A DNA stretch of 64,000 nt from Planctomycetota bacterium (GTDB taxonomy: Bacteria; Planctomycetota; Planctomycetia; Pirellulales; UBA7805): the NCBI GenBank assembly GCA_003389215.1, contig QQVP01000110.1, forward strand, positions 1-64,000, in the 5' to 3' direction. A model generated the notes under the pieces. It was given only the letters and a program-made list of their open reading frames with translations. It was not told where the DNA came from and made no database searches. Made by a program: the position numbers and the translations under genes. Positions 7,252 through 33,989 of this stretch are shown here, one piece after another. How positions within the stretch are numbered: position 1 is the first letter of the stretch; each line of letters starts with the position of its first letter.

Positions 7252-8000
7252 AACGGCTCCCCTCGAGAACAGCTTCTCGTCGAATGACCAGAAAGAATGG
7301 GACGATATGACTAACACCGCCGACGCCGCGACGTTCCGCCCGCATGTCCACGGCAAAGGCAATCAGCGTGCCACGCCCGATCTTACCACAAACGCGATCA
7401 GCGCCGTTTGCTTGACACGTGACGGGCGTTCGCTCGCATCTGGCGGGTCGGCTGGTGGTCTAAGAGAAACCGCAGAGGGGGGACCCAGGGAAGCCGAGAG
7501 AGGGGCAGCGTCAGAAAAATCTAAAAAACGCCGAATTTTGTCGGCGGGCGGGTCCTGGCAGGCGGCCGAGAATTGTAGCTAATTGCTACACCTGTACGAT
7601 TCCGATACAGGCAAAAAGAAACAGGCAAGTCGGGAACCCTATGGTACCGGATTCCCGTCTTGCCTGTGTGGGAGCGGGTTGAGTTCCCTCAGACCGCTCG
7701 ATTCGCACCTCTTCTCGTTCTCTCGGCTGCTCTTCTCCGTCTCGTGAAGAGACGATAACCATCTTTCTGTTCAGGGGTTCGGTCGAAACCGAACCGGCCT
7801 CTTCGGCGGACCGGCCCCGGACGTTTTGCCTCTCCGTCTGTTCCGGCCCCGACGAACTCTTGTCACGCCCCGAGAGAACGGCCTTGCGTGACGGAACCAG
7901 AGAAATGCAAACGCCGTGCCAAAGGAGCCAGCACCCTTCGTTCGGTGGTCTGTGCCTAAGTGTGCAGGCACGGAGATTCCATGCCGATTCTGAAACAAAG
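7252..8000. other. intergenic region with one long hairpin
   Basis: About 750 bp without a credible gene; the overlapping ORFs are short and have no family character. The one clear structure is a long inverted repeat at 7621-7636/7652-7667 (arms beginning ACAGGCAAG and ending CTTGCCTGT, one mismatch, 15-base loop containing GGTACC). No T-run follows, so it is not a classic terminator. It may be a structured RNA, a REP-like element or a protein-binding dyad. Confidence 0.5.
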
Positions 8001-8028
8001 GAAGCCGAAGAAGTGAATCTTCGGCTTC
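8001..8028 (+). other. 10-bp perfect hairpin abutting a tRNA gene
   Basis: GAAGCCGAAG at 8001-8010 is the exact reverse complement of 8019-8028, with an 8-base loop. The 3' arm ends one base before the tRNA acceptor stem begins at 8029. It could be a terminator-like stem without a T-run, a processing determinant for the tRNA 5' end, or an integration footprint. Confidence 0.6.
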
Positions 8029-8128
8029 GGCAGGGTGGCCGAGTGGCGACGTAGCCGACTTATAATCGGCGATCCGGGTGGCCCTTCACAGCACTAACCC
8101 GGCGCGGGTTCGATCCCCGCCCCTGCCG
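8029..8128 (+). tRNA. type II tRNA, anticodon UAU, serine-like body (atypical)
   Basis: Acceptor stem GGCAGGG/CCCTGCC is 7 perfect pairs. The T arm GCGGG-TTCGATC-CCCGC is canonical. The anticodon arm GCCGA-CTTATAA-TCGGC has U33 and anticodon UAU. The variable region is 33 nt with a 6-bp stem CCGGGT/ACCCGG and a long loop, longer than normal for Ser or Leu tRNAs. The D arm starts like tRNA-Ser (GCCGAGTGG), but the D stem is weak, with one G-U and one mismatch. Discriminator base is G, the usual serine determinant in bacteria. CCA is not encoded. UAU would read AUA (Ile), which bacteria normally read with a lysidine-modified CAU tRNA, so identity is uncertain. It could be a mistranslating tRNA, a relic, or a tRNA-like element. 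It sits at the edge of an accessory patch. Confidence 0.7.
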
Positions 8129-8132
8129 TTCG

Positions 8133-8447
8133 TCATGGACTCTTGAGAACGTCATCGTGGGTCCCGCAGTTTCTAAAAAGGATTTCATCATTCCCATATT
8201 GAAACGTGACTAAGAGACCGCCTCCAGCATGCATTTCCCAAACTGGCGGGCGCGCCTTGCCCTCTTCAGTTGGCGTGCCCAATACGCCCTCAAGTTTATG
8301 TACTCGCATACCTCTCGGAAAAGGATGAAATGGATTTTGCGCAAGCTTTCGTAGGGCCTCGTCGATCCGGCCCTGCGCTTTCTCTGATAAGCGGCTGTAC
8401 GCCCTTTGAAATGAGGTTGTATAGCCATATTGCAAGGGGCACCCCAA
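8133..8447 (-). CDS. RelE/ParE-superfamily toxin-like protein
   Basis: About 104 aa. It is probably the toxin of a toxin-antitoxin pair; RelE members cut mRNA at the ribosome and ParE members poison gyrase. Visible features are an N-terminal helix pair ('SFQRAYSRLSEKAQGRIDEAL'-type, basic), a central 'WEMHAGGGLLVTFQY' strand pair and the C-terminal 'ILFRNCGTHDDV', matching the family ending with a conserved GxHD. The track start is TTG directly after the TAG stop of the upstream antitoxin-like gene (zero spacing), consistent with translational coupling. A later TTG is possible. It ends 5 bases from the tRNA. GC content and codon use are lower than in flanking genes, suggesting acquisition. 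Confidence 0.7.
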   Translation of the reverse strand: MGCPLQYGYTTSFQRAYSRLSEKAQGRIDEALRKLAQNPFHPFPRGMRVHKLEGVLGTPTEEGKARPPVWEMHAGGGLLVTFQYGNDEILFRNCGTHDDVLKSP

Positions 8448-8657
8448 CTAATTGCGCAGGCTATCTATCAGCTCATCAATGGACGCGAACCGTTTTACAT
8501 TGCCGTTTTCGATGTCGTCGTCAGGACACGACAAGCTAAGGTATTCATCAAACAGCGGCGCATTGAAATCAAGATTTCTTTCGTCGCTGCAAGGCCCACC
8601 GGGATCTTTCGCATAAGCCGCGGTTCGCCACCCTGTTGTCTTTGTTTCCCATGTCAT
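8448..8657 (-). CDS. antitoxin-like small protein
   Basis: 69 aa, acidic, with 'FNAPLFDEYLSLSCPDDD' in the middle. The ending 'VKRFASIDELIDSLRN' resembles the amphipathic C-terminal helix of small antitoxins that wrap around RelE/ParE toxins. No clear DNA-binding domain is visible, so if it represses the promoter it does so through an unrecognised fold. It abuts the toxin-like gene and lies 22 bp downstream of the 253-aa unknown gene. The call rests on gene order, size and the terminal helix, not on a known antitoxin family. Confidence 0.55.
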   Translation of the reverse strand: MTWETKTTGWRTAAYAKDPGGPCSDERNLDFNAPLFDEYLSLSCPDDDIENGNVKRFASIDELIDSLRN

Positions 8658-8679
8658 AGCGCCACTCCGTTATTGATTG

Positions 8680-9441
8680 TTACTCATGCTGTTCATCATC
8701 TGATACATCAAACTGATCTAAGAATTGCTTGCAGTTCTCGGTGAGAAATCGATACGCAGATCGGACCTGTTGCTCAATTTTTTCTGAATCGTCTACCGCT
8801 GGCAATTCTCCGCTAAATAGGCTGAAGGAATCACATTCCATCCATACTTGTTGCGGGTCTTCTGAGTACGTTTCAAATCGAACGGTCGCAAAGTCATCGT
8901 GTGAAACCTCAGCTCCTGCTGCGTGTTCTATGGTGCAGGGCGGGAATCTAAACCGGACTCCAAAAAATGCAGGTGGTCGCCCGAAGGGATCAATTGATTC
9001 CATTGCATTGGCTACTCGACCAGCAAGCAGATTTAGTGAATCATCTAAGATTTGTGGCTGAGATAGCGCTTGAACTCGTGTGCGTTGCGTTATGAACGGT
9101 GGAAATCTCACTCCATCAGCATCTTCCGAAATCGCGTGTAGAGCACGCAAAACGCCGCGAATCTTTTCGAGAAATCCATCCACCGTGAAATTCGGATGGC
9201 GTTCAATAAAAATCATCCAATCATCACCAAAGCGACAAATCGATTCGCTGCGCTCTATATGCGTACTTAAGTCGCAATGAACACTTCCTAGATTTATGTT
9301 GTCGTAGCGAAAAGTTTCAAAATCGCTCTCATGAAGTTTGTTGTATAGCCGACGCACCAAGTCCCTCGTCACGCGAAAATCTGGCACTTCTGGCCAATCC
9401 AGCCGCGTCTGAAAGAAGATTGTCCGTGGTTCGGAAAGCAT
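8680..9441 (-). CDS. unknown 253-aa protein, first gene of a TA-like unit
   Basis: First gene of a three-gene unit with the antitoxin-like and toxin-like genes. Mostly soluble alpha/beta text with many aromatic residues: N-terminal 'TRLDWPEVPDF', a middle segment 'RFGDDWMIFIERHPNF', and a C-terminal helix containing 'AYRFLTENCKQFLDQFDVSD'. No membrane span or catalytic signature is evident. The layout (N-terminal strand, long helix, C-terminal helical tail) recalls sporadically distributed accessory proteins, but I cannot name the family. It is clearly less GC-rich than its neighbours and has its own consensus promoter. Confidence 0.6.
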   Translation of the reverse strand: MLSEPRTIFFQTRLDWPEVPDFRVTRDLVRRLYNKLHESDFETFRYDNINLGSVHCDLSTHIERSESICRFGDDWMIFIERHPNFTVDGFLEKIRGVLRALHAISEDADGVRFPPFITQRTRVQALSQPQILDDSLNLLAGRVANAMESIDPFGRPPAFFGVRFRFPPCTIEHAAGAEVSHDDFATVRFETYSEDPQQVWMECDSFSLFSGELPAVDDSEKIEQQVRSAYRFLTENCKQFLDQFDVSDDEQHE

Positions 9442-9565
9442 CTACTGGCCTACCGGCGCAAAAATTAGGCCCCTGTGCGAGCGCAGCGGCCGAAGTCATA
9501 TCCGTACTTCCATTGTTGCCACAGTACCGACACGCTCCTTCCCTTCCATGTTCATCGGCGTGCCT

Positions 9566-9593
9566 ATTATACGACATTTAAGCCGAATGTCAA
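9566..9593 (-). promoter_or_regulatory. consensus sigma-70 promoter with embedded dyad
   Basis: On the minus strand TTGACA (9593-9588) and TATAAT (9571-9566) are separated by 16 bases; both boxes are perfect consensus. A 6-bp inverted repeat GACATT/AATGTC (9573-9578 and 9586-9591) overlaps the -35 box and spacer, the usual position for a repressor operator. Transcription would start near 9559, about 120 bases before the 8680-9441 gene. The rest of 9442-9773 holds no recognised feature. A promoter this strong and E. coli-like is unusual in this window and fits an acquired, autoregulated TA-type unit. Confidence 0.7.
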
Positions 9594-9773
9594 GACGCAA
9601 AATGAGTCCACAAAAGGACTTGCGCCCAACCGCAATACTTAAGGGCCTGTATCGCACGGCTTTACAACATCTAATACACATCAACGACGCCCGAGGTTCA
9701 ACCCCCGCACGCATTTTCACACACCACCCTTCGTTCGTCAGCCCGCCGGGCCGGCAGCGCAGGGCAAGATCGC

Positions 9774-33914: not shown

Positions 33915-33989
33915 GGGCGATTAGCTCAGTTGGTTTAGAGCACTAGCTCGACAAGCTAGGGGTCACAGGTTCGAGCCCTGTATCGCCCA
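33915..33989 (+). tRNA. tRNA-Val (GAC), with C at position 33
   Basis: Acceptor GGGCGAT/ATCGCCC, D arm GCTC-AGTTGGTTTA-GAGC, anticodon arm CTAGC-TCGACAA-GCTAG, variable GGGTC, T arm ACAGG-TTCGAGC-CCTGT, discriminator A. Anticodon GAC reads GUC (Val). Position 33, almost always U, is C here. CCA is not encoded. Confidence 0.88.

Follow-up and report, generated by a model that had tools for sequence, protein, structure and literature searches.

Serine-type tRNAs with a UAU anticodon in IS1-like transposons suggest control of transposition through AUA codons

Results

An IS1-like element with a tRNA gene

The window, i.e. the whole stretch of 64,000 nucleotides that was analyzed, contains at positions 7944 to 9728 an element of 1,785 bp with IS1-like inverted repeats, which is enclosed by a perfect 8-bp target duplication. 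The following features were assigned:

7936-7943, no strand: left 8-bp target-site duplication CTTCGTTC, identical to 9729-9736
7944-7967, plus strand: left terminal inverted repeat GGTGGTCTGTGCCTAAGTGTGCAG, 20/24 identical to the repeat of the tRNA-carrying IS1-like element G002:C43
8002-8027, plus strand: perfect 10-bp hairpin (aagccgaaga, loop agtgaa, tcttcggctt), role unassigned, read from the sequence
8029-8128, plus strand: class II 7/5 tRNA with UAU anticodon, G73 and a damaged D stem (Rfam; homologues with compensatory changes)
8133-8447, minus strand: ORF of a YafQ-like type II toxin, convergent with the tRNA (Pfam YafQ_toxin, E 2e-6; 28.5 bits, just below the curated cut-off of 30 bits)
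8448-8657, minus strand: small ORF immediately 5' of the toxin ORF, presumed antitoxin by position and size
8680-9441, minus strand: ORF of 253 amino acids, function unassigned, AUA at 4 of 13 Ile codons
9705-9728, minus strand: right terminal inverted repeat GGTGGTGTGTGAAAATGCGTGCGG, 18/24 identical to the right repeat of G002:C43
9729-9736, no strand: right target-site duplication CTTCGTTC, identical to 7936-7943

The element G002:C43 used for comparison originates from a genome (G002) of the same family as the window genome (G000). Within the 64 kb, the left end was the best and the right end the second-best match to the right repeat of G002:C43, and the pair at 7944 and 9728 ranked first in the window when inverted repeats with target duplications were sought. 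A pair of repeats combined with a duplication occurred exactly once in the window and in none of 20 shuffles, while the left repeat, with up to three mismatches allowed, was found at a single site of G000. The same flanking genes are separated by approximately 2.1 to 2.4 kb less in the genomes G006, G007, G008 and G009, measured from gene to gene. The inverted repeats and a duplication in the range of the IS1 family (8-9 bp) are thus present, but a DDE transposase is not: neither the ORFs nor Pfam disclosed a transposase between 7944 and 9728. Since the IS1-type transposase is lacking, the element can only be a non-autonomous derivative. For the case of a non-functional gene, the first-pass annotation had envisaged a tRNA-like element bordering an accessory patch. 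This came close to the present result, as the tRNA is almost certainly cargo of a non-autonomous IS1-like transposon.

The toxin gene adjacent to the tRNA is not conserved in the homologous loci of the genomes G026 and G052 (see below), and therefore the toxin/antitoxin pair was regarded as independent cargo. Neither the presumed antitoxin nor the 253-amino-acid ORF gave a match in Pfam or NCBIfam. In the latter ORF, AUA makes up 4 of 13 Ile codons versus 2 of 207 in sampled genes of the window.

Structure of the window tRNA

The Rfam tRNA model RF00005 matched positions 8029 to 8128 of the plus strand with 43.3 bits (E 6.8e-6), the gathering score being 29. Scoring by a covariance model had been proposed in the first-pass annotation, whose coordinates for a long-arm tRNA with UAU anticodon turned out to be exact. 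ARAGORN missed the gene; its only call in the window was a tRNA-Val at 33915. All seven pairs of the acceptor stem (GGCAGGG/CCCTGCC) and all five of both the anticodon stem (GCCGA/TCGGC) and the T stem (GCGGG/CCCGC) are formed. The anticodon loop CTTATAA provides U33, the anticodon UAU and A37, and the variable region of 33 nt includes a stem of 6 bp (CCGGGT/ACCCGG). The discriminator is G (G73) and CCA is not encoded. Only the D stem is weak, with a G10-U25 and a C11-G24 pair followed by a C12/C23 mismatch. The three perfect stems, U33, the anticodon UAU, the length of the variable region, the discriminator and the poor D stem had been described beforehand and agree with the sequence. The hairpin at 8002-8027 ends 1 nt 5' of the tRNA and might be a terminator or a processing signal.

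Homologues and identity of the tRNA

A search for the same gene in related genomes, likewise envisaged at the outset, was successful. By BLAST of 40 relatives, one homologue with 76% identity was detected in G026, a member of another family of the order, and further tRNAs of the 7/5 type were later found in G052 (anticodon UAU) and G069 (anticodon UAC). In the alignment of the four homologues 97% of the cells are paired and eight pairs changed on both sides. This combination of pairing and two-sided changes was matched by none of 500 shuffles, and structures slid along the alignment reached 40 to 54% pairing. Since the tRNAs of G026 and G052 possess intact D stems, the D stem of the window copy has apparently decayed.

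The nearest ordinary relatives of the window tRNA are tRNA-Ser(GCU), and G73 is present in all four 7/5 members. The long variable arm and G73 are those of a tRNA-Ser, but the anticodon UAU is not. The 33-nt variable region and G73 disagree with a tRNA-Ile, the reader of AUA with a short variable loop and A73, and G73 in all four members also disagrees with a tRNA-Leu (A73). A tRNA-Sec would have an acceptor branch of 13 bp and usually the anticodon UCA, but the window tRNA has 12 bp (7/5) and UAU. Searches of phage and plasmid records with the window tRNA gave no match, nor did viral contigs contain a tRNA of the window type (class A), and an origin from a phage or plasmid was dismissed on these grounds. 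The tRNA arrays of the own genome were discarded as a source as well, class-A tRNAs being absent from them. An exact pattern scan of genome contigs yielded five loci in other phyla, none of which passed a cloverleaf scan.

Complete transposons carrying long-arm UAU tRNAs

A pattern scan covering 397 genomes from the order brought up numerous UAU tRNAs that combine a long arm with G73 and a 9/3-like partition. For this 9/3 set, RNAalifold predicted an additional helix joining columns 10-12 to columns 51-53, giving a possible five-stem junction. At G026 and at the majority of the 9/3 loci inspected, the tRNA is followed by a convergent small ribbon-helix-helix or NikA-like ORF and an IS1-like transposase gene. 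The transposases consist of a zinc finger and a DDE domain and match NF033558/NF050000 and PF03400; the inverted repeats start with GGT. The limits of the transposons were determined element by element through a search for inverted repeats together with target duplications, which delimited complete elements in many genomes; a consensus repeat derived from G220 did not recognize other elements. In all 12 complete elements that could be bounded and were checked (2.4-3.6 kb, 8-bp duplications), the tRNA is located inside, 194 to 435 nt 5' of the transposase gene and on the same strand. The 7/5 tRNA of G026 resides in one of these 12 elements, of 2,413 bp with a repeat identical at 24/24 positions (GGTAGTGTCTTAAGAGTGTGTGGG) and the duplication ATCGCTCC, and that of G052 in a complete element of 2,582 bp with the duplication GCCGATGC. 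G220 harbors two copies at different sites that are identical over 3,318 bp.

Among the passengers located close to the tRNA are PemK/MazF-like and DUF5615/DUF433 genes, which are of the toxin-antitoxin type. A phylum-wide search with the tRNA model under strict filters revealed only two new loci, G659 and G501, so that the prevalence in the phylum is a lower bound. Two transposons contain tandem tRNA pairs (L248:2871-3049 and L261:3011-3179). Their long-arm tRNAs have the anticodons UAC (L248) and GUC (L261), and the second tRNA of each pair, 68 to 71 nt in length, has UAU.

AUA codons in the transposases

All 42 scored transposases accompanied by a tRNA contain AUA at column 237, 248 or 256 of the alignment, versus 2 of 23 without a tRNA (Fisher 4e-15, the rows not being independent). 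Fisher values are descriptive here because the three columns were picked after viewing the alignment. On the tree, the tRNA needs six changes and AUA four, too few for an independent-pairs test to have power. Among the 42 tRNA-positive rows, AUA accounts for 55 of 72 Ile codons at the three columns versus 65 of 606 elsewhere (p 3e-32), and at each of 16 further Ile columns, which together hold 262 Ile codons, AUA occurred at most once. Codons neighboring the AUA columns vary synonymously. Column 237 carries AUA in one clade and columns 248 and 256 in the other, and in L252 the codon has moved from 248/256 to 237. The out-of-sample loci G659 and G501, which belong to another family of the class and were found with the tRNA model alone, have AUA there in the downstream transposase as well. 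Exceptions are L250 and L282 with AUA at which no tRNA was found, and L297, where just a short UAU tRNA-like gene was spotted by eye. Taken together, the tRNA and the programmed AUA codons are very probably linked in function.

In homologues the three columns are mostly occupied by I, V, M, C, A or L, not by Ser. Most transposases without a tRNA (e.g., L310-L312 and L317-L327) have Cys (TGC/TGT) at column 237, and the residues seen in homologues at columns 248 and 256 are I, M, V and A, whereas Ser never occurs there. The AUA columns are hydrophobic positions, which the predicted fold (pLDDT 86) places between the second catalytic Asp (D198) and the catalytic Glu (E261), on the strand 235-245 and just ahead of the catalytic motif.

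AUA reading in the host

The host genome encodes TilS and a tRNA which, judged from its sequence, is probably tRNA-Ile2(CAU). Therefore, the host should be able to read AUA as Ile without help. A single relative of the transposases was detected in G000 (C23; genome completeness 93%), with no AUA at 237, 248 or 256 and no adjoining tRNA found. Given its broken D stem and the lack of a detected AUA-bearing transposase in G000, the window tRNA probably represents a relic or retains little function; its interest lies in having pointed to the transposon system of tRNA and AUA. G000 also possesses large arrays of many divergent tRNAs (C1:425352-431415, L031, and C79:11154-12912, L032), one of which includes a short-arm tRNA-Ile(UAU) at C1:426010.

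Discussion

The data suggest that IS1-like elements use a tRNA of their own to regulate their transposition. At the sequence level, the fold of the tRNA, the ends of the transposons, the cargo position and the conservation of AUA together with its link to the tRNA have been demonstrated. We propose that the element encodes a tRNA dedicated to the AUA codons of its own transposase. This tRNA would most likely be charged with Ser and compete with the host Ile-tRNA at AUA, where Ser in place of Ile would spoil the transposase, thus creating a brake on transposition that grows with the copy number of the element. The AUA site would be free to move, as in L252, while staying in the stretch between D198 and E261. 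Ile is presumed to be the working residue because the residues that prevail at these columns in homologues (see Results) do not include Ser. As Ile fits best and Ser would spoil the enzyme, a brake is favored. We infer that the tRNA is transcribed, accepts Ser, misreads AUA and thereby acts as such a brake. The proposal as a whole, comprising the transposon-borne tRNA, programmed AUA codons and the Ser brake, is in our opinion the best explanation and probably correct in outline, while its component that Ser insertion exerts the braking is put forward tentatively. A further reason is needed why selection should keep a brake against the short-term interest of the element. In a more general form, the tRNA and the AUA codons may constitute a private decoding device, in which the element's own Ser-type tRNA(UAU) decides upon the residue at programmed AUA and by this means controls transposition, be it through a brake or, most boldly, a required AUA-to-Ser recoding. 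For this wording we see the chances as evenly balanced.

The Ser brake has to be weighed against other readings of the same data. The tRNA might be loaded with an aliphatic residue, i.e., with Ile although its body is of class II, and serve AUA codons for which the supply in G+C-rich hosts is short; transposase would then be produced chiefly in cells in which the element expresses its tRNA. Such a helper would suit the residues I, V, M, L or C found at the AUA columns in relatives, the rarity of AUA in the sampled host genes (2/207) and, by general knowledge on tRNAs, U36-A37, but according to established identity rules the long variable arm and G73 of the aligned members contradict recognition by IleRS. 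Moreover, with TilS and a probable tRNA-Ile2(CAU) the host should already be able to read AUA, and a helper alone leaves unexplained why AUA has been retained where AUC would serve. We therefore consider this reading rather unlikely. It is quite improbable that, conversely, the Ser-containing transposase is the active form and the tRNA inserts Ser at programmed AUA. The Ser-type body with G73 and the Cys at column 237 of most tRNA-less transposases, which is nearly isosteric with Ser, are compatible with this possibility, but columns 248 and 256 never show Ser in homologues, and an AUA site that differs between clades and has shifted in L252 is unexpected if a specific residue were needed.

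The tRNA could also be a mere passenger, or act as a structural RNA in the transposon, the AUA codons being due to an unrelated cause. The unusual folds of the 9/3 set including the extra helix 10-12/51-53 would agree with that, and the review PMC7609411 suggested an association with transposons or toxin-antitoxin systems without a translational role. This explanation appears improbable given that UAU is complementary to exactly the codon that the transposases conserve, that L248 (UAC) and L261 (GUC) each carry a second, small UAU tRNA, and that AUA and tRNA co-occur. Finally, it is scarcely conceivable that the gene is an independent tRNA-Ser or tRNA-Leu of the host whose anticodon has mutated, or that the cloverleaf arose by chance, even though the closest ordinary relatives are tRNA-Ser. 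The notion was refuted by the transposon ends with target duplication that enclose the gene, and by the homologues from two other families of the order with their compensatory changes and conserved UAU. Of the initial proposal of a serine-type body that reads AUA, the body was borne out by the long arm, G73 and the kinship to tRNA-Ser(GCU), and the reading of AUA is plausible; a change of the host code did not hold, as TilS, a probable tRNA-Ile2(CAU) and a short-arm tRNA-Ile(UAU) are present.

Among known tRNAs, allo-tRNA(UAU) is the nearest counterpart. The sections on allo-tRNAs in PMC7609411, referring to Mukai et al. 2017, describe class II, Ser-like tRNAs, in whose 8/4 set UAU is among the commonest anticodons, and mention stem-destabilizing changes and possible five-stem junctions for the group. 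They list Clostridia, Proteobacteria and Acidobacteria as hosts, report that one pseudogene copy overlaps a transposon-related ORF and propose an association with transposons or toxin-antitoxin systems. According to the same sections, translation in E. coli made no use of the Edaphobacter allo-tRNA(UAU), and the synthetases of E. coli did not charge allo-tRNA-like species. The planctomycete 9/3 set resembles the published group, also in the possible five-stem junction, whereas the tRNAs of the window, G026, G052 and G069 are canonical 7/5 tRNAs. Thus, the window tRNA shares the Ser elements and the non-Ser anticodon with allo-tRNAs but not the 8/4 or 9/3 partition, which is found (as 9/3) in other members of the transposon group. 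The allo-tRNA sections of PMC7609411 name neither the transposon family nor AUA codons of a transposase, and a search of a paper library for transposon-borne tRNAs or AUA control gave nothing beyond this review. tRNAs with a mismatch of body and anticodon, above all UAU, have hitherto been described without a purpose. Their placement in IS1-like transposons beside AUA-bearing transposases gives them a definite and testable one, codon-level control of transposition, which, if true, would be a new route of self-control for a mobile element and a naturally occurring example of missense decoding in local use.

The elements share with IS1/IS1595-type insertion sequences the transposase with zinc finger and DDE domain, the repeats starting with GGT, the 8-bp duplication and the presence of passengers. 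They differ in that the tRNA is a regular passenger at a fixed place and accompanied by AUA codons in the transposase gene, which the window copy lacks altogether. In Streptomyces, the chromosomal bldA tRNA-Leu(UUA), a cognate tRNA, reads the rare TTA codon in regulated genes. The principle of a rare codon in a regulated gene that is read by one special tRNA is the same, but here the tRNA is part of a mobile element and combines a body and an anticodon that do not belong together. The eukaryotic nev-tRNA-Ile(UAU) of nematodes is likewise a long-arm tRNA with UAU, which is not expected to carry Ile and has been reported to be charged with Leu. By description, it shares the long arm and UAU with the window tRNA; we know of no link between it and transposons.

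Long-arm UAU tRNAs were also encountered in tRNA arrays of IMG/VR phages (L103, L107, L108, L117 and about 50 further loci). They are of the 7/5 type with A73 and an encoded CCA (e.g., GCCAGCGAGACTTGG...CGCCAGATTAGCG...). We judged them to be unrelated to the window tRNA, and they apparently represent a separate origin of long-arm AUA readers.
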